NCBI GenBank assembly: GCA_003695505.1
Contig: RFIY01000263.1
Location: forward strand, 1-5,947
Reading direction: 5' to 3'
From: J088 sp003695505 [NCBI: Candidatus Dadabacteria bacterium]
Lineage (GTDB): Bacteria > J088
Length of the DNA stretch: 5,947 nt
Each line of letters begins with the position of its first letter. Positions within the stretch are counted from its first letter, which is position 1. A program made the position numbers and the translations under genes. Below are positions 1-5,947 of this stretch, piece after piece. The notes below the pieces were generated by a model. The model searched no databases. It had not been told where the DNA came from and saw only the letters and a program-made list of their open reading frames with translations.

Positions 1-903
1 CAGGGTGCGCAGAAAGCAGGAATGCTCGATGCGTGGCTCGGATTGCCCTCGGTACGGGAATCGGTACGACTCGCCGAGGATCTTCTGTCGGCGCCACTCG
101 GCACCTGGATGCGCGAAGGCCCAGACGAAACCTTGCGTGAAACCGCGTGGGCCCAGCCTGCGCTTCTGGCGCTGGGTGTACCGATCGCGCGCGAGCTGAT
201 CGAGCGTGGACTACCCGTCGTTGCTGCGGCCGGCCACAGCCTCGGCGAGCTGACCGCACTGACGGCGGCCGGCGTATTCACCCTGGAACAGGGCATTCGC
301 CTGGCGCACGAACGTGGCCGCGCGATGCAGGAGGCCGTTCCGATTGGTCAGGGTGGCATGGCGGCCCTGCTCGGCGTCGACGATGCGGCGCTCGCGACCG
401 TACTCGAACGCGCGCACCGTTTCGGTGTGATCGTCGCTGCCAATGAAAACGCACCGGGCCATACCGTCGTCAGCGGAGAGGCCGCAGCCCTTGCGGCCGT
501 GCGCGAACACGCTTCGGACTGCGGCATACGCCGCGTCGTCCCGCTGCCCGTTTCCGCGCCATTTCATTCGCCATTGATGGCGCCCGCCGCCGAACGGCTG
601 CGATCCCTGCTTGCCGAAACACCGCTGGCTGAGCCCGCGTTTCCCGTCTGGAGCAATGTACATTGCGCGCCATACCAGGACGTCGGACAAATACGGGACG
701 CGCTGGTCGAACAGATCACCGCACCAGTGCGCTGGACGACGCAGGTCTCCCGCATGTATGAACGTCTGTCCGACAGTATCGCGGTCGATGTCGCACCGGC
801 TGGCGTACTGAGCGGATTGCACCGTCGCATACGCGCGGACTGGCCGATCCAGCGATTGCAGTCGCCGGCCGACCTGGATGTCATCGCCGAGCGCGCGGCA
901 TGA
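1..903 (+). CDS. fabD: Malonyl-CoA:ACP transacylase (FabD-like), 5'-truncated by the window edge
   Basis: Transfers malonyl from CoA to the phosphopantetheine thiol of acyl carrier protein in the cytoplasm, supplying extender units for fatty-acid or polyketide synthesis. The frame is open from base 1. The first visible residues, QGAQKAGM, match the FabD N-terminal GQGxQ motif, whose first Gln forms the oxyanion hole, so only about 10 residues are missing and the ATG at 22 is not the true start. Numbering from base 1 (300 residues), the nucleophile elbow GHSLGE has Ser80, HERGRAMQEAVP has the CoA-carboxylate-binding Arg105, and SAPFHSPLM has the catalytic His189. The estimated full length of about 310 residues equals the family norm. 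One oddity: the conserved C-terminal GPGxVLxGL reads APAGVLSGL. The stop overlaps the fabG start by 4 bases, which implies translational coupling. The family call is firm; whether it serves housekeeping or accessory synthesis is not settled. Confidence 0.93.
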   Translation, partial: QGAQKAGMLDAWLGLPSVRESVRLAEDLLSAPLGTWMREGPDETLRETAWAQPALLALGVPIARELIERGLPVVAAAGHSLGELTALTAAGVFTLEQGIRLAHERGRAMQEAVPIGQGGMAALLGVDDAALATVLERAHRFGVIVAANENAPGHTVVSGEAAALAAVREHASDCGIRRVVPLPVSAPFHSPLMAPAAERLRSLLAETPLAEPAFPVWSNVHCAPYQDVGQIRDALVEQITAPVRWTTQVSRMYERLSDSIAVDVAPAGVLSGLHRRIRADWPIQRLQSPADLDVIAERAA

Positions 904-1634
904 ACCAACGACGAACGGCGCTGATCACGGGCGCATCCGGCGCCATCGGCGCGGCCTGCGCATACCGGCTGGCGCGGCAAGGCTGGGATCTGCTGCTGCA
1001 TTACCGTACCGAAAGGGACGAAACGCTGACAAAAAACTGCACGGACGCTGGCGCAAGGGTTGGCTGGTGGCAGGCCGACCTCTCAGAGGACGACTGGACC
1101 GACAGCCTCCGTGACCAGCTTAAGGACAGCGGCGAAGTGACTGGCATCGTCCACGCCGCAGGCAATACCGGCGAGGGGCTGATCGCCCGCGTCAGCGACG
1201 ACCAGATCGACCGGACACTTGCCATCCACGTCCGCGCAGCCGCGATCATCGTCCGTGAATGCTCACGACACCTCTTGCGCGCCCGTTTCGGCCGCATCGT
1301 ACTGATCGGCAGCACCGTCGGTTTATCGGGCAACGCCGGGCAGAGCATCTATGCAGCCGCAAAAATGGGCCAGATCGGACTGGTTCGCGCCTGGACCCGC
1401 GAAATGGCCCGACGGGGCATTACCAGCAACGTCGTCGCGCCCGGCTGGATTGAAACTGACATGACAGTTGATATACTGAACCGCAACAGAGATGCGCTCG
1501 AAAATGAGATCCCGGCGGCGCGCATCGGGCAGCCAGACGACGTCGCCGCGGCGGTGGCGTTTCTGATGACGGAAGAGGCGGGGTATATCAGCGGCCAGAC
1601 CCTCCCCGTCAATGGCGGATTGTGGATGGTGTAA
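900..1634 (+). CDS. fabG: 3-oxoacyl-ACP reductase (FabG-like SDR) with altered active-site Asn
   Basis: A classical short-chain dehydrogenase/reductase predicted to reduce 3-oxoacyl-ACP to 3-hydroxyacyl-ACP with NADPH. Its 244 residues match the length of E. coli FabG. The Rossmann glycine motif TGASGAIG is at 10-17, Asp60 is at the adenine-contact position, Ser138 lies in IGSTVG, Tyr151 and Lys155 in YAAAK, and VAPGWIETDMT at 179-189 and the C-terminal VNGGLWMV are FabG hallmarks. The Ser, Tyr and Lys fall at the same residue numbers as in E. coli FabG. Two conserved sites differ: the NNAG motif is HAAG (85-88), and the helix-4 catalytic Asn is His110 (AIHVRA). The ATG start lies in an ATGA overlap with fabD and no strong Shine-Dalgarno is visible, so coupling is likely. 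It is probably a reductase, but its catalysis or substrate range may differ from housekeeping FabG. Confidence 0.92.
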   Translation: MNQRRTALITGASGAIGAACAYRLARQGWDLLLHYRTERDETLTKNCTDAGARVGWWQADLSEDDWTDSLRDQLKDSGEVTGIVHAAGNTGEGLIARVSDDQIDRTLAIHVRAAAIIVRECSRHLLRARFGRIVLIGSTVGLSGNAGQSIYAAAKMGQIGLVRAWTREMARRGITSNVVAPGWIETDMTVDILNRNRDALENEIPAARIGQPDDVAAAVAFLMTEEAGYISGQTLPVNGGLWMV

Positions 1635-1662: not shown

Positions 1663-1905
1663 ATGGCAGAACAAGGCGATATCTTTACCCGGGTAACCGA
1701 AATCATTTCGGACAAGCTGGCAATCGATCCGAAGCAGATCACCCCGGAAAGCACCTTTACCGAAGACCTGGGCGCGGACAGCCTCGATGTCGTGGAGCTC
1801 CTGATGGCTCTCGAGGACGAGTTTGGCATACACATCGAAGAGGAAGAAGCCGAGCAGATTGAGTCCGTCCGCGATGTCATCGCCTTCATCGAAGAGCACG
1901 TCTGA
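1663..1905 (+). CDS. acpP: Acyl carrier protein
   Basis: A small acidic four-helix carrier that holds growing acyl chains as thioesters on a 4'-phosphopantetheine arm and passes them between the neighbouring enzymes. The 80-residue product has the standard size. The attachment motif is EDLGADSLD, with Ser40 as the modified residue, and the flanking VVELLMALEDEFGI (helix II) and EEEAEQI segments are typical of AcpP. The acidic helix II (Glu45, Glu51, Asp52, Glu53) would dock to the basic patches of FabD, FabG and FabF. The start has a good GGAG site 8 bases upstream. The 3' end is overlapped by the ketosynthase gene in another frame. This is the most canonical member of the operon, in contrast to the diverged enzymes around it. 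Confidence 0.96.
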   Translation: MAEQGDIFTRVTEIISDKLAIDPKQITPESTFTEDLGADSLDVVELLMALEDEFGIHIEEEEAEQIESVRDVIAFIEEHV

Positions 1906-3157
1906 CGAACCTGAGGCGCCCCGCCATCGGCGGGTAGTCATTTCGGGTATCGGTGTCTTTTCGCCTTCCGGGGTCTCGGTTGGCGAACTCGAACAGCAGA
2001 TCTTTTCTGGTCGCAGCGCGTTGCGCACAGAGACTTTTCGTTCGTCTGTCGACGAATGTATCTGCGCGGTCGCCGCAGCACCGGAAGTCATTCCCGGTCT
2101 CGACAGCCGTCAGCGCCGGCGGCTGGATCGGTTCTGCCAGATGGCGCTCTATGCGGCCTGCCAGGCCAGCGAGGAAGCGCGCCTGACCGCGAGCGGGTTT
2201 CCGGCGACTTCCGGCATCTTTTGGGGCAGTGGGTTCGGCGGCATTATCTCTCTGACCGAGCAGCTTGAGATCCTTCAGCAGCGCGGGTGCAGGCGCGTAT
2301 CGCCACTGGTCGTGCCAGCCGTCATTGCCAACGCCGCCGCGGCGCATATTGCAGAGACATTTGAGATCAGGGGCCCGTCGCTGACATTTACGACGGCCTG
2401 CGCCGCGAGCGGGCAGGCGATTGGCGAAGCGTGGACACGAGTCGCCAGCGGTGAACTCGATGTGGCGATCGCGGGCGGATCGGAAGCCGCGCTGACAACG
2501 ATTGCCGCCGCCGGTTTCCTGAACGCCCGGGCACTGGCAAGACAGGCAGACGACGTGCGGCCATTTGGCGAGGGCCGCAGCGGCTTTGCGCTGGCCGAGG
2601 GCGCCTGCGCGCTGATCCTGGAGCCGCTCGAACAGGCGCTGGAACGTCGCGCCCCCGTATACGCCGAGGTGCTTGGCTACGGAACCGCTACAGACGCCTG
2701 GCACATCACCGAACCCGACCCGAAAGGACGCGGCGCCGAACGCGCCATTCGAGAAGCATTGCGCAGTGCCGGGCTTCATCCCCGAACGATAGACTACGTC
2801 AACGCGCACGCAACCGGCACGGTCGTGGGGGACCGTGTCGAGGCAGAGGTTATCGCTCGCGTCTACGGAACTGGCGAAGAGGCACCCACCGTTTCCAGCA
2901 CGAAGGGACTGACCGGCCATCTGCTCGGCGCGGCCGGCGCGATCGAAGCAGCCGTCACCGCGCTGGCGCTGCGCACCGGACTGCTGCCCCCAAACACGCC
3001 GGTGGACACTCCGGGCGATGATTGCCCCGTGCCACGACTGGCCCGCCCGGGCGACCGACAACACCTGCATACAGCCACGTCGCACGCCTTCGGATTCGGC
3101 GGCGTCAACACCTGCATCGTCCTGGGCCAGCCAGACCTGCGCATCGAACATCACTGA
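1874..3157 (+). CDS. fabF: Beta-ketoacyl-ACP synthase II (FabF-like)
   Basis: A decarboxylating condensing enzyme that elongates acyl-ACP with malonyl-ACP. From the ATG at 1874 it has 427 residues, slightly longer than E. coli FabF (413). The Cys-His-His triad is visible: Cys176 in TTACAASG, His312 in NAHATGT, and His349 in KGLTGHLLGAAGA together with Lys344. The C-terminal HAFGFGGVNT corresponds to the gating FGFGGTN loop. Conserved positions differ: RPFD is RPFG, RDGF is RSGF and GEG is AEG (residues 229-243). The fold begins at RHRRVVISGIG, about residue 17, after a Ser-rich leader. No ATG, GTG or TTG occurs in frame between 1874 and the conserved core, so the gene must start inside acpP (32-base overlap). 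A TTG at 1823 preceded by GAGGA is an alternative start giving 444 residues. The enzyme family is certain; FabF-type elongation versus a specialised ketosynthase is inference. Confidence 0.92.
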   Translation: MSSPSSKSTSDEPEAPRHRRVVISGIGVFSPSGVSVGELEQQIFSGRSALRTETFRSSVDECICAVAAAPEVIPGLDSRQRRRLDRFCQMALYAACQASEEARLTASGFPATSGIFWGSGFGGIISLTEQLEILQQRGCRRVSPLVVPAVIANAAAAHIAETFEIRGPSLTFTTACAASGQAIGEAWTRVASGELDVAIAGGSEAALTTIAAAGFLNARALARQADDVRPFGEGRSGFALAEGACALILEPLEQALERRAPVYAEVLGYGTATDAWHITEPDPKGRGAERAIREALRSAGLHPRTIDYVNAHATGTVVGDRVEAEVIARVYGTGEEAPTVSSTKGLTGHLLGAAGAIEAAVTALALRTGLLPPNTPVDTPGDDCPVPRLARPGDRQHLHTATSHAFGFGGVNTCIVLGQPDLRIEHH

Positions 3158-3161
3158 GGCC

Positions 3162-3689
3162 ATGAAATCCGAAGGTCCCGCCCAACGCATCGTCATTGAA
3201 GAGCGCCATCCCGCCTGGCGGGGGCGGACCGAGCTGGGCGCAATGTTGTCGATTCCCTGCGGCGCGTATGACGATCAGACCTTCGCAATGTTCGATGCGT
3301 ACCTGGAAAGGCTGCAATCCGCCGGGATCGAACGTTGCATCATGTTCAGCCAGCCGCTACCCGACACGCCGATCCCGCGTGGCAAGGCCGCGCGCAGACT
3401 GTACGCCCTGCTGCAGCAGGAGCGCGGACGGTTCGTCGCCGTCGTCAACGCGATCCACGGAGACAGCCTGTGGCGAAGGGCCGCCAGAGCCTTCCTGAAT
3501 CGGCTCGTCACCGCATACGATGACCATCCGATTGCCTGGGTTCGCGACGTCCGCGATGCCGCGGACTGGGCATGGCAGATCGCGGAACGGCAGCAGATCG
3601 TTCTACCGGCGAGCAATCCGGCCGAATTACACGACTGGCTGGACCGGGGCCTCCGCGAGCTTACCGCCGAACCTGAGGCGGCGCCGTAA
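3162..3689 (+). CDS. Uncharacterised protein, paralogue 1 (possibly STAS/SpoIIAA-like)
   Basis: I do not recognise a named family with confidence. The 175-residue product has no signal peptide or membrane segment. Its core carries AYDD (35-38), QPLPDTPIPRG (64-74), AARRL, AVVNAI (93-98), AARAFL (107-112) and PIAWVRDVRDAADWAW (123-138). The last segment, ending in a strand followed by an Ala-Trp helix, resembles the end of SpoIIAA/STAS-like proteins, but this is only a pattern impression. The gene at 4282-4776 encodes a homologue without gaps over the core. The ATG is 4 bases after the ketosynthase stop, and the only purine-rich site (GAGG) is 2 bases from it, so re-initiation after fabF translation is likely. 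It is therefore probably the last gene of the acyl-chain operon, which hints at a role with ACP-linked metabolism or its regulation. It ends 12 bases before the convergent gene. Confidence 0.85.
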   Translation: MKSEGPAQRIVIEERHPAWRGRTELGAMLSIPCGAYDDQTFAMFDAYLERLQSAGIERCIMFSQPLPDTPIPRGKAARRLYALLQQERGRFVAVVNAIHGDSLWRRAARAFLNRLVTAYDDHPIAWVRDVRDAADWAWQIAERQQIVLPASNPAELHDWLDRGLRELTAEPEAAP

Positions 3690-3701
3690 GCGGGCCGCCG
3701 G

Positions 3702-4232
3702 TCACATCTCGGCCCGAATCGGCCACATCCGCTCACCCAGCTTCAGGCAAGGCGTACCATCGCCGTCTTCGTCAAGCCAGGTTGCCAGATCCGCGACCGC
3801 CGTTCGCGTCAGTCGCGCCGCGTGCCCGCGTCGCTCCGTATCTCCGTACCGCCCGCAAGCGACCGTTGCGACGAGACCTCCGTCCGGGCGTAGCAGCAGA
3901 CCATCATCCGGGAGCGGCTCAACAGAGCCGTCTCCGAGCTCGAACATCAGCGCACCGTTCTCCGCGAATACATGGCGCACGATCAGCGGCGTGTCCTCGA
4001 ACTCGACCAGCACGCGTTGCGGCCCGTTGACAATCCAGTATTGCCCCTCGCGGTTGCGCATCAGATGGCGCCAGAGAAAGGCCTTCAGCTTCGGATGGGT
4101 AATCGGGCCGTCGCCGATCAGCCATCGCCCCTCGCGGTCAAGCCGCAGCACGCCCGCAGCAATCAGCCGGTCAGGAATCTGATCGACCGATTCGACGGGA
4201 TGGTCAGGCTGTTCTGGAATCCGCAATGGCAT
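3702..4232 (-). CDS. Uncharacterised protein, tentatively DUF4505/UPF0598- or DUF1285-like
   Basis: A 176-residue soluble protein on the opposite strand, lying between two paralogous genes. Visible landmarks are LRLDREGRWLIGDGPI (29-44), KAFLWRHLMRNREGQYWIV (50-68), VEFEDTPLIVRHVF (76-89), and a C-terminal LKLGERMWPI (163-172). The order resembles the DUF4505/UPF0598 family (a D-x-x-G-x-L/W-x-x-D opening, then FF-x-RLR-x-N-x-x-GRY, then C/F-EDTPIVFTHL), which includes human C8orf82. DUF1285 shows a similar order (dG-W, a dG-Y-L segment, VEDaPF). The SPCG signature of UPF0598 is absent, so the assignment is tentative. The ATG has AGGA 10 bases upstream. Its stop is 12 bases from the end of the convergent gene, and its start is 49 bases from the divergent paralogue. 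Function is unknown. It is a real gene on grounds of fit between its neighbours and a coherent globular sequence. Confidence 0.78.
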   Translation of the reverse strand: MPLRIPEQPDHPVESVDQIPDRLIAAGVLRLDREGRWLIGDGPITHPKLKAFLWRHLMRNREGQYWIVNGPQRVLVEFEDTPLIVRHVFAENGALMFELGDGSVEPLPDDGLLLRPDGGLVATVACGRYGDTERRGHAARLTRTAVADLATWLDEDGDGTPCLKLGERMWPIRAEM

Positions 4233-4237
4233 CTTGA

Positions 4238-4243
4238 TATGAT
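4238..4243 (+). promoter_or_regulatory. Candidate -10 element for paralogue 2
   Basis: TATGAT (5 of 6 to the sigma-70 -10 consensus) stands out in GC-rich sequence, about 39 bases before the GTG start at 4282. No good -35 is visible at 17 bases upstream (TGGAAT). It lies in the 49-base divergent gap, immediately upstream of the minus-strand gene's start codon, so transcription of the two genes could interfere. Confidence 0.3.
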
Positions 4244-4270
4244 CCTGAAAGCTTGCGCCAACGACAGCGA

Positions 4271-4275
4271 AAGGA
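4271..4275 (+). promoter_or_regulatory. Ribosome binding site that selects the GTG start at 4282
   Basis: AAGGA is followed by a 6-base spacer and then GTG at 4282. The in-frame ATG at 4297 has no comparable site at the right distance, so the GTG start is preferred for paralogue 2. Confidence 0.65.
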
Positions 4276-4281
4276 CGTTTT

Positions 4282-4776
4282 GTGGAATTCGCCCGGATGC
4301 ATCCTGGTTTTTTCCTGTACTACACCCGTGGGCTGTTGCTTTCGGTACCGACCGACGCCTACGATGATGCATCGTTCGCGGCCATGGATCAGGCCGTGGC
4401 GCAAATACGCGCGTCTGGATGCGACCGGCTGATGCTGTTCAATCAACCGTTCCCGGGAACACCGATTCCTCGTGGTGACGCTGCCCGCCAACTGCGCGCC
4501 CTCTTCCAGCGAGAACGCGACCTGATTACGGCCGTCGTCAACGCCATCCCGGGCACCGGCTTCTGGGTCAGCGCCGCGCGGGTCTTTTTGCGCGCGCTGT
4601 CGCTGGCGTATCGAGACCGCCCCATCACCTGGTGCCAGGATGTGCGCGAGGCGTCCGCCTGGGCACTGCGCCAGGCCGACCTGCTCGGACTGGACGTGCC
4701 ATATACCGATCCTGAGGATCTGGCGCGCTGGCTCGAACGCGGCCTGAAAGAGGCGGGCTTTCCCGGGTTGGGCTAG
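4282..4776 (+). CDS. Uncharacterised protein, paralogue 2 (possibly STAS/SpoIIAA-like)
   Basis: A 164-residue homologue of the protein at 3162-3689. Residues 17-157 align to residues 26-166 of that protein with a constant offset of 9 and no gap. By hand count 68 of 141 positions are identical. Shared blocks are AYDD (26-29), QPFPGTPIPRGDAARQL (55-71), ER (78-79), AVVNAI (84-89), AARVFL (98-103), AY-x-D-x-PI-x-W (109-117), DVREA (120-124) and WLERGL (150-155). The N terminus is shorter and unrelated. GTG is chosen because of AAGGA 6 bases upstream; the ATG at 4297 would remove five residues. Unlike paralogue 1 it stands alone, with its own likely promoter, between a divergent gene and a convergent tRNA. 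No membrane segment or catalytic motif is recognised. A SpoIIAA/STAS-type fold is a guess from the PIxW-DVRxAxxWA end. Duplication followed by divergence is a reasonable inference. Confidence 0.86.
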   Translation: MEFARMHPGFFLYYTRGLLLSVPTDAYDDASFAAMDQAVAQIRASGCDRLMLFNQPFPGTPIPRGDAARQLRALFQRERDLITAVVNAIPGTGFWVSAARVFLRALSLAYRDRPITWCQDVREASAWALRQADLLGLDVPYTDPEDLARWLERGLKEAGFPGLG

Positions 4777-4777
4777 C

Positions 4778-4800
4778 GTGTGCGGCTGGGCTTCGCACAC
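4778..4800 (+). terminator. Candidate bidirectional hairpin terminator
   Basis: GTGTGCG (4778-4784) and CGCACAC (4794-4800) form a perfect 7-bp stem around a 9-base loop, starting 2 bases after the stop of paralogue 2 and 17 bases beyond the 3' end of the convergent tRNA-Trp. The position suits termination from both sides. There is no T-run on either strand, so strength is doubtful. Confidence 0.4.
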
Positions 4801-4817
4801 ATTACGCGCAATCAGAA

Positions 4818-4890
4818 CAGGAGCGGCGAGACTCGAACTCGCAACCTCCGGATTTGGAGTCCGGTGCACTGCCAATTGTGCTACGCTCCT
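4818..4890 (-). tRNA. tRNA-Trp (anticodon CCA)
   Basis: Read on the minus strand, the 73 bases fold into a full cloverleaf: acceptor AGGAGCG/CGCTCCT (7 bp), D stem GCAC/GTGC, anticodon stem CCGGA/TCCGG around loop CTCCAAA, T stem GCGAG/CTCGC around TTCGAGT, and discriminator G73. The anticodon CCA lies at 4855-4857 and reads UGG, and G73 is the usual tryptophanyl-tRNA synthetase identity base. The 3' CCA is not encoded (TTC follows), so it must be added by the CCA-adding enzyme. The body is close to E. coli tRNA-Trp, supporting a beta- or gammaproteobacterial source. In many proteobacteria tRNA-Trp precedes secE-nusG; here nothing co-directional follows it in the window. Confidence 0.98.
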
Positions 4891-4908
4891 CGAAGTCGCA
4901 AAGGACAC

Positions 4909-4938
4909 ATTGTAGATATAATCGACCATTGACTGCAA
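4909..4938 (-). promoter_or_regulatory. Likely sigma-70 promoter of tRNA-Trp
   Basis: On the minus strand, TTGCAG (+ strand 4933-4938) and TACAAT (+ strand 4909-4914) are separated by 18 bases. The -10 ends 18 bases before the tRNA 5' end, leaving a short leader for RNase P. Both hexamers match consensus at 4 to 5 of 6 positions and are AT-rich against a GC-rich background. Confidence 0.55.
4917..4922 (+). promoter_or_regulatory. Candidate -10 of the histidine kinase gene, overlapping the tRNA promoter
   Basis: A perfect TATAAT lies 62 bases before the kinase ATG, inside the spacer of the divergent tRNA-Trp promoter. There is no recognisable -35 (AGTCGC at the expected place) and no extended -10 TG, so it may need an activator or may be fortuitous. 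If both are used, polymerases on the two strands would compete for the same site. Confidence 0.35.
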
Positions 4939-4984
4939 TTCGCGTCCGATCTGATTCAACGCCGACGATGTACACGGTCCGACA

Positions 4985-5947
4985 ATGACTGAAGTAGAGA
5001 CGAAATTGCTGGCCGAGAAGTGGTGGGAACGCGTCCGCGCAAGCTACCCGGACGCCTGGGCCATGATCGCGGCCATCGGCATCGTCGTCAATCTGGTTGT
5101 GATCCCTGTCGACCTGATGAACATGACAGGGTCGTATCACAATGTGATCATTGGGCTACGTTGCGCGGCAGCAGCCTGGTTCGGCGTGATGTTCGTCGTC
5201 GCGCGACGATATCCGGACTGGCTTCGCAGATGGTGGCTGACAACCCTGCTCATCTCGTTCGCCTTCTTCTGCCTCGTCTACACGGCGATCAGTCTGATGG
5301 TCAATGGCATCCAGAACCACTACTACGCCGCGATCATCGAGGTCGAGTTCATCGTCGCAACCTTCGGGATGCTCCCTGTACTGCCGTTTGCCGTCGCGAC
5401 GATCCTGCTGAATGTTCTCTACATCGTCACCCACCAGGCGGCCGGCGCGATCGCAAGCACCTCGGAACTGATTACGTTGACCACGACACTTGGCATCTGC
5501 GCCGCGCTCGCAATCGTCACACTCGCCCGGATGATTCGCGTGCAACTTGGCGGATTCGCGGAGCTGCTGGAACGTCAAGTCCTGTCGCGCGAGCTGGAGG
5601 ACCGTGTTGCGGCCCAGACCTTGCGACTGCAACGCCTGAACCGCTACCTGAACGATCAGATCGAAGCGCACCGTCGCAGTCTGTCGCGAGAGTTGCACGA
5701 CGATCTGGGGCAACTGCTGTCCATCATCGTGCAAACGTCGAACGCGCTCGCGCCGGCCGCCGAGAAACTCGATGCGAGCGATCGCGAACGCTTTGCGTTG
5801 CTCCAGGATGTCAGTGCACGCGCCGTCGAGTCGGTGCGCCGCCTCGCCGCCGAAAACAGCGCCCCGGCCCTGGCCGAGCAGACTCTGTCGGCAGCCATCC
5901 GCGCCGATGTTCGGCGCATCGAATCGGCCGGCACGCTGTCTGTTGGC
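4985..5947 (+). CDS. Membrane sensor histidine kinase, NarL/LiaS type (HisKA_3), 3'-truncated
   Basis: The frame is open from the ATG at 4985 to the window edge (321 codons), and an in-frame stop at 4952 fixes this as the first start. Residues 25-183 hold about five or six hydrophobic segments (near 25-45, 55-73, 84-105, 118-150, 163-183) with short loops, so sensing is probably within or close to the inner membrane rather than in a large periplasmic domain. Residues 190-232 are rich in Leu, Gln, Glu and Arg and look like a coiled-coil signalling helix. The H-box SLSRELHDDLGQLLS has the phosphoacceptor His238, as in HisKA_3 kinases that dimerise and phosphorylate NarL/FixJ-type response regulators. 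The ATP-binding domain lies beyond the edge. No clear Shine-Dalgarno precedes the start. The signal is unknown, and a LuxR-type regulator gene directly downstream would be expected. Confidence 0.92.
   Translation, partial: MTEVETKLLAEKWWERVRASYPDAWAMIAAIGIVVNLVVIPVDLMNMTGSYHNVIIGLRCAAAAWFGVMFVVARRYPDWLRRWWLTTLLISFAFFCLVYTAISLMVNGIQNHYYAAIIEVEFIVATFGMLPVLPFAVATILLNVLYIVTHQAAGAIASTSELITLTTTLGICAALAIVTLARMIRVQLGGFAELLERQVLSRELEDRVAAQTLRLQRLNRYLNDQIEAHRRSLSRELHDDLGQLLSIIVQTSNALAPAAEKLDASDRERFALLQDVSARAVESVRRLAAENSAPALAEQTLSAAIRADVRRIESAGTLSVG

Follow-up and report, generated by a model that had tools for sequence, protein, structure and literature searches.

Two paralogous genes, here called A and B, were distinguished beside a predicted fatty-acid synthesis (fab) cluster in a bacterial draft genome, and both look like intact genes under purifying selection. 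Judged from their sequences, their products are best explained as members of an undescribed and so far single-genome protein family. A structure model indicates that A probably adopts a SpoIIAA/STAS-type fold, and the same fold follows for B by homology. It is possible, and we propose it tentatively, that these paralogues contact acyl-loaded acyl carrier protein (acyl-ACP) or the chain that it carries and adjust the synthesis of fatty acids; within this proposal the fold is moderately supported by the model, and the function is one that we infer.

The analysed stretch of DNA (the window; 5,947 nucleotides) is a whole contig of a draft genome (2.83 Mb, 395 contigs, 84.5% complete). Its genes are arranged in the order fabD-like, fabG-like, acp, fabF-type, A, a minus-strand DUF2944 gene, B, tRNA-Trp and a HisKA_3 kinase gene (Table 1).

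Table 1. Features predicted in the window, in order of position
Feature	Coordinates	Strand	Basis and remarks
fabD-like, malonyl-CoA:ACP transacylase	1..903	+	PF00698, 82 bits; TIGR00128, 226.5 bits (cut-off 260.9)
fabG-like, ketoacyl reductase (SDR)	900..1634	+	PF13561, 162.8 bits; 4-nt overlap with fabD stop
acp, acyl carrier protein	1663..1905	+	NF002148, 107.1 bits (cut-off 71); PF00550, 60.1 bits
fabF-type, ketoacyl-ACP synthase II	1874..3157	+	TIGR03150, 399.2 bits (cut-off 493.75); PF00109, PF02801
A, 175 aa, orphan	3162..3689	+	ORF, ATG start; proposed SpoIIAA/STAS-type fold with C-terminal helix
DUF2944 gene between the copies, 176 aa	3702..4232	-	PF11161, 51.4 bits (cut-off 32.2)
Extended -10-like TGATATGAT upstream of B	4235..4243	+	By eye only
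Shine-Dalgarno-like AAAGGA	4270..4275	+	By eye; 6 nt ahead of the GTG of B
B, 164 aa, orphan paralogue of A	4282..4776	+	ORF, GTG start; stands alone; 70/151 residues identical to A
tRNA-Trp	4890-4818	-	Between B and the kinase gene
HisKA_3 histidine kinase	4985-5947	+	PF07730, 34.8 bits; runs off the contig end

The fabD-fabG-acp-fabF order is common to the window and the fab cluster of E. coli (plsX-fabH-fabD-fabG-acpP-fabF-pabC), which differs in having pabC behind fabF where the window has A; plsX and fabH are out of view, since the contig ends within this region and truncates the 5' end of the fabD-like gene. Inspection by eye located the active-site motifs of FabD (including GHSLGE) and FabG, the regions of the active-site Cys and His of the FabF product, and the DSL attachment site (ADSLD) of the ACP, a protein with a net charge of -19. 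In a further difference from E. coli, FabD, FabG and FabF of the window all score below the cut-offs of their top NCBIfam models, and the FabF is at most 43% identical to proteins of 386 genomes, among the matches listed, which is in keeping with a deep lineage. Within the source genome it is the only FabF at E ≤ 1e-60 among the four of 18 candidates that were scored. The ATG in use for fabF falls within acp (overlap 1874-1905, 32 nt), and the true start may be located further downstream. The fabG-like product outscores the FabG models with YmfI, a model for EF-P 5-aminopentanone reductase (225.8 bits, cut-off 238, against 213.9 bits, cut-off 297.75, for TIGR01830 FabG); because of its neighbour genes it is most likely a diverged FabG.

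BLASTP aligned A and B over 151 residues without a single gap, with 70 identities (46%) and 98 positives (E 8e-48), and the top ungapped diagonal of at least 100 residues reached 42.7% identity, compared with a maximum of 20% in 2000 shuffles. An earlier, sequence-only reading of this DNA had described two diverged paralogues aligned at a constant offset over about 141 residues, with roughly 48% identity; the best window of that length contains 68 identities (48.2%), and the shared motifs named in that reading recur in both proteins. The differences between the genes are distributed over the three codon positions as 0.37/0.36/0.64, pN is 0.37 vs. a pS of 0.71, and 41 of the 70 identical residues are encoded by differing codons. 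Synonymous sites are thus near saturation, which points to an old duplication, while the codon-position pattern and the 41 codon changes suggest that both genes have long been kept under selection. The minus-strand gene between the copies was rightly taken to be unrelated to them, as its product passes the gathering score of PF11161. This protein also gives DUF1285_N at 18.9 bits (under the cut-off of 29.3) and a weak PDB match (2re3, E 0.029). DUF1285 has been suggested to act in signalling by nucleotide binding (PMC2954208); this role is not carried over to the DUF2944 gene of the window.

Four libraries (Pfam, NCBIfam, PHROGs and PADLOC) contain no named family for A or B, in line with the earlier reading, which knew of no named function for this motif set. 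In Pfam, nothing above the cut-off was obtained for A (best DUF4734, E 0.18, 12.5 bits vs. 25, over 25 residues) and no match for B; in NCBIfam, A had no match and B nothing above the cut-off (best a Maf-like model, E 0.045, 13.3 bits vs. 269). PHROGs returned one family for A at E 0.2 and none for B, and PADLOC none for either. PDB sequences gave no match for A or B singly and three matches for a two-row A/B profile at E 1-1.7. Plasmids held no relative of A or B, and phages, searched with A alone, a single match at E 0.6. Pattern scans, which mainly pick up near relatives, revealed no relative in genome contigs or viral contigs.

Genome searches were similarly unproductive. The query P0002, run against 98 genomes, matched in its own genome alone, and the A/B profile, run against 386 genomes, matched its own and 23 others at E ≤ 0.1 (0.005-0.09), where about 39 are expected by chance; three of the six top others (E 0.005-0.019) cross stop codons. 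Among 195 genomes of a single phylum (that of genome G028) the profile found three partial matches (E 3.8e-5, 2.4e-4 and 0.005), whose ORFs appear by eye to be transporter-like, apparently antisense and amidohydrolase-like, respectively, and which were read as chance. Consequently, no convincing homologue of A or B was recognized in the other genomes searched (386 sampled, and 195 of one phylum).

The position of the host bears on how this absence is to be read. No 16S rRNA gene was found in the source genome. The aligned part of its RpoB is 56-66% identical to those of E. coli and 22 genomes (drawn from the 44 other best-matching genomes, out of 145 searched), and an RpoB tree of 24 rows places it together with genome G044 (97/97), on long branches. 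From these identities and the tree, the host is probably a separate phylum-level lineage. The two genomes of the phylum of G044, both included in the list of the FabF search, gave no match with the A/B profile. The search of the host's own phylum amounted to the source genome alone (either the set contains no other genome of its phylum, or the source genome itself carries no phylum label), and because the genomes searched include no phylum-mates, the absence of relatives is weak evidence. The sequence-only reading had named two outcomes that would speak against it, namely membership of a well-characterised family and a pairing unique to this genome. The proteins have a known fold at most; a unique pairing fits the data so far, on a sampling too thin to count as a refutation. 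Recurrence of the pair or of the three-gene arrangement, which that reading would have taken as support for a functional module, was not seen in the genomes searched.

Two side observations concern these genomes. No FabF match at E ≤ 1e-60 was obtained for G044, among the matches listed, and therefore the fatty-acid pathway of that genome may be reduced or divergent. In the source genome, the RpoB sequence is divided between two contig ends (C89, from base 1, and C153, up to base 9627); the proteins read from them overlap and differ at two or more residues, possibly due to strain variation in the draft genome.

The lack of convincing homologues in the 386 and 195 genomes would also be expected if A and B were lineage-specific, duplicated orphans unconnected with fatty-acid synthesis, A being a last gene that is read through from the fab operon. 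B has no adjoining fab gene, and gene order alone is weak functional evidence; against this, the 4-nt spacing behind fabF and the purifying selection on both copies imply a kept function, though not which one. We regard this explanation as quite unlikely.

A STAS/SpoIIAA-type fold had been set down from the sequence pattern before A was modelled, after a poor model in which B was placed first. AlphaFold2 with A first yielded a pLDDT of 66.3 and a pTM of 0.62, with one of five models converging (the others at most 51.6); with B first the pLDDT was 53.5 and the model was unusable: in its structure comparison STAS chains did not appear, Z stayed below 5 and the matches were without meaning. The SpoIIAA-like fold is reported to have the order beta1-beta2-alpha1-beta3-alpha2-beta4-alpha3-beta5-alpha4 (PMC2954212). 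Strands and helices of the A model follow this order, with four core strands, a first strand of two residues at low confidence, and an extra C-terminal helix. VIA-align, run over the top 1000 chains of Foldseek for this model, ranked highest (i) 2q3l, a SpoIIAA-like protein (Z 7.8, rmsd 2.9, 106 of 122 residues), (ii) 3mgl, which we take to be the STAS part of a Vibrio cholerae permease-family protein (Z 7.7, 111 of 128 residues), and (iii) 6jhk, RsbS (Z 6.6, 108 of 116 residues), so that 87-93% of each chain is covered by the alignment, values of Z below 8 being ones that, as the tool warns, can mean merely a common arrangement. The next chains are tied with the third: 4h08, a hydrolase (6.4), 2vpt, an esterase (6.3), and 1z8h, a GDSL-like lipase (6.0). 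Foldseek itself gave no match to the A model at E 0.001, and neither did the viral structure library at the same threshold.

At the sequence level, a profile of A and B was aligned by hhalign with SpoIIAA-like sequences from 14 of 16 loci (the short fragments L067 and L069 were left out). The alignment was colinear (score 20.3, P 0.01, probability 4%) and spanned 115 columns at a loose setting and 81 at default; the score was reached by one of 150 global and none of 150 block shuffles, while the divergent SpoIIAA-like sequence L071 alone scored under the shuffle mean. In a three-row alignment with A and B, L071 did not line up in the expected way, and that alignment was set aside. An HMM of the 14 sequences gave A 2.4 bits (two of 500 shuffles as high, 328 reported) and B -1.2 bits (47 of 500, 245 reported), values that lend weak sequence support to A and none to B. 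The A-x-x-W pattern described in alpha4 of the SpoIIAA-like family (PMC2954212) was seen in both proteins, whereas the conserved Ala-Ala-Trp-Asp-Asp described in alpha2 (PMC2954212) is absent, A having GKAARRL and B GDAARQL. It is the fold proposed beforehand, the three chains of that same fold on top and the colinear profile alignment that make this fold likely for A.

A rather unlikely alternative is that the two proteins belong to a different alpha/beta fold (e.g., half of a (beta/alpha) barrel with an amidohydrolase-type TIM barrel as its origin, or a flavodoxin-like fold), the STAS match reflecting a common arrangement. The hydrolase at Z 6.4 would suit it, and many proteins in the Foldseek list for the A model are barrels; however, the listed barrels lie at about Z 5, compared with 7.8 for 2q3l. 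An amidohydrolase-type TIM barrel is an eight-fold barrel with an HxH metal site on its first strand, whereas A has just 175 residues and four core strands in its model, and HxH occurs in neither A nor B. The amidohydrolase-like ORF mentioned above (L074, minus strand) shares 26 of 60 residues with A (BLASTP E 6e-8, a single comparison) and is aligned with the A/B profile by hhalign over 43 columns (P 0.00026, probability 43%). Its pairwise E value is nevertheless a selected one, because the ORF was picked as the weakest of three matches from 195 genomes (E 0.005 per genome); about 60 residues are matched, B alone gives E 0.054, and the similarity to A is probably due to chance.

With the SpoIIAA/STAS-type fold as the preferred reading, three known systems may be compared. 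The SpoIIAA-like family (PF11964, DUF3478; 2ook and 2q3l of Shewanella) also consists of single-domain proteins and shares with A and B the strand and helix order of the A model, its top structural match and A-x-x-W in the last domain helix. The points of difference are the missing Pfam match (none for PF11964 at E ≤ 10), the missing Trp-Asp-Asp of alpha2, the extra C-terminal helix in the A model, and the presence of two paralogues near fab genes. The STAS proteins (PF01740; YchM/DauA STAS, RsbS, SpoIIAA and MlaB) are approached structurally through 3mgl and 6jhk, but A and B have no sequence match to them (none for PF01740 at E ≤ 10), no transporter fusion and no DSSG, the phosphosite motif of SpoIIAA. 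Given these failed Pfam tests and the lack of the alpha2 Trp-Asp-Asp, A and B were not filed under PF11964 or STAS. The CRAL-TRIO lipid carriers, a eukaryotic family, are described as having the same SCOP fold as SpoIIAA and binding nonpolar ligands (PMC2954212), whereas A and B have no Pfam match, and no CRAL-TRIO chain is present among the VIA-align matches listed for the A model.

The proposed contact with acyl-ACP is drawn from the following observations. A crystal structure of the YchM STAS domain of E. coli with ACP is cited, and ACP helix II is reported as important in the contact (PMC3340395); in the window, an acp gene precedes A. For SpoIIAA-like proteins, a role as carriers of nonpolar ligands has been proposed, with alpha2 and alpha3 described as closing a hydrophobic cavity like a lid and as the predicted site of membrane contact (PMC2954212). 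The turn before alpha2 together with alpha2 is conserved between A and B at 14 of 21 positions. The two helices alpha2/alpha3 carry net charges of +3/+4 in A, and of +2/+2 in B. Against the proposal, alpha3 is conserved at 8 of 17 positions, no better than the average, and over their full length A and B are slightly acidic (-2 and -1, respectively). In the proposed mechanism, A is probably made with FabD, FabG, ACP and FabF from one operon, and B separately. The positively charged alpha2/alpha3 face, with the motifs PxTPIPRGxAARxLxALxQxER and WxxAARxFL, would dock on the acidic ACP or on its acyl chain, in a mode akin to that of the YchM STAS domain or to a SpoIIAA-like lipid-carrier role, and the docked protein would sense or limit fatty-acid synthesis. 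The action of A would then follow the expression of the fab operon, and that of B another signal.

The same fold could instead serve a classical STAS switch acting on a protein partner (e.g., an anti-sigma factor, a kinase or a transporter subunit), with the fab operon merely a convenient place and a Thr in the beta3-alpha2 turn (T69 of A, T60 of B) as phospho-switch. A Ser/Thr at the equivalent position is reported to be broadly conserved in STAS proteins and phosphorylated in SpoIIAA, RsbR and RsbS (PMC7367683). PxTPIPRG, with its Thr, is common to A and B just ahead of alpha2 (an equivalence taken from a modest model), the matched 3mgl and 6jhk are STAS domains, and B is followed further downstream by the gene of a histidine kinase. 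Weighing against such a switch are the lack of a DSSG-type motif and of a Pfam STAS match, the minus-strand tRNA gene that separates the HisKA_3 gene from B, and the fact that a Pfam scan of eight window proteins revealed no anti-sigma gene; we consider it unlikely.

To our knowledge, direct protein contacts with ACP that tune type II fatty-acid synthesis are only partly known. The complex of the YchM STAS domain with ACP is a rare example, and a dedicated STAS-type protein encoded behind fabF would make the STAS-ACP link a testable regulatory module. A narrow survey of the literature (titles and the beginnings of abstracts) contained no description of a fab operon that encodes a free-standing STAS protein. 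That A and B represent a new free-standing SpoIIAA/STAS-type family, which binds acyl-ACP and regulates synthesis by direct contact through one operon-coupled and one separately switched copy, seems improbable as a whole; if true, the two copies of one sensor would be found in a deep-branching bacterial lineage. Should the fold alone hold, the SpoIIAA-like fold would gain an undescribed family, from a lineage that has been little sampled.

Since the ATG of A follows the fabF stop codon (3155-3157) by 4 nt, A very likely belongs to the fab transcript, a position that could be incidental. The starts of B and of the divergent DUF2944 gene are 49 nt apart, and B has its own Shine-Dalgarno-like site. 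The earlier description of one copy with the acyl-chain genes and the other alone is upheld; its suggestion of different partners or timing would fit this arrangement. A consensus scan of positions 3000-5000 detected no promoter or terminator. Membrane-sensing kinases of the HisKA_3 class, e.g., DesK, can govern lipid genes; nothing here ties the kinase of the window to B, and its product contains several hydrophobic N-terminal stretches (by eye).
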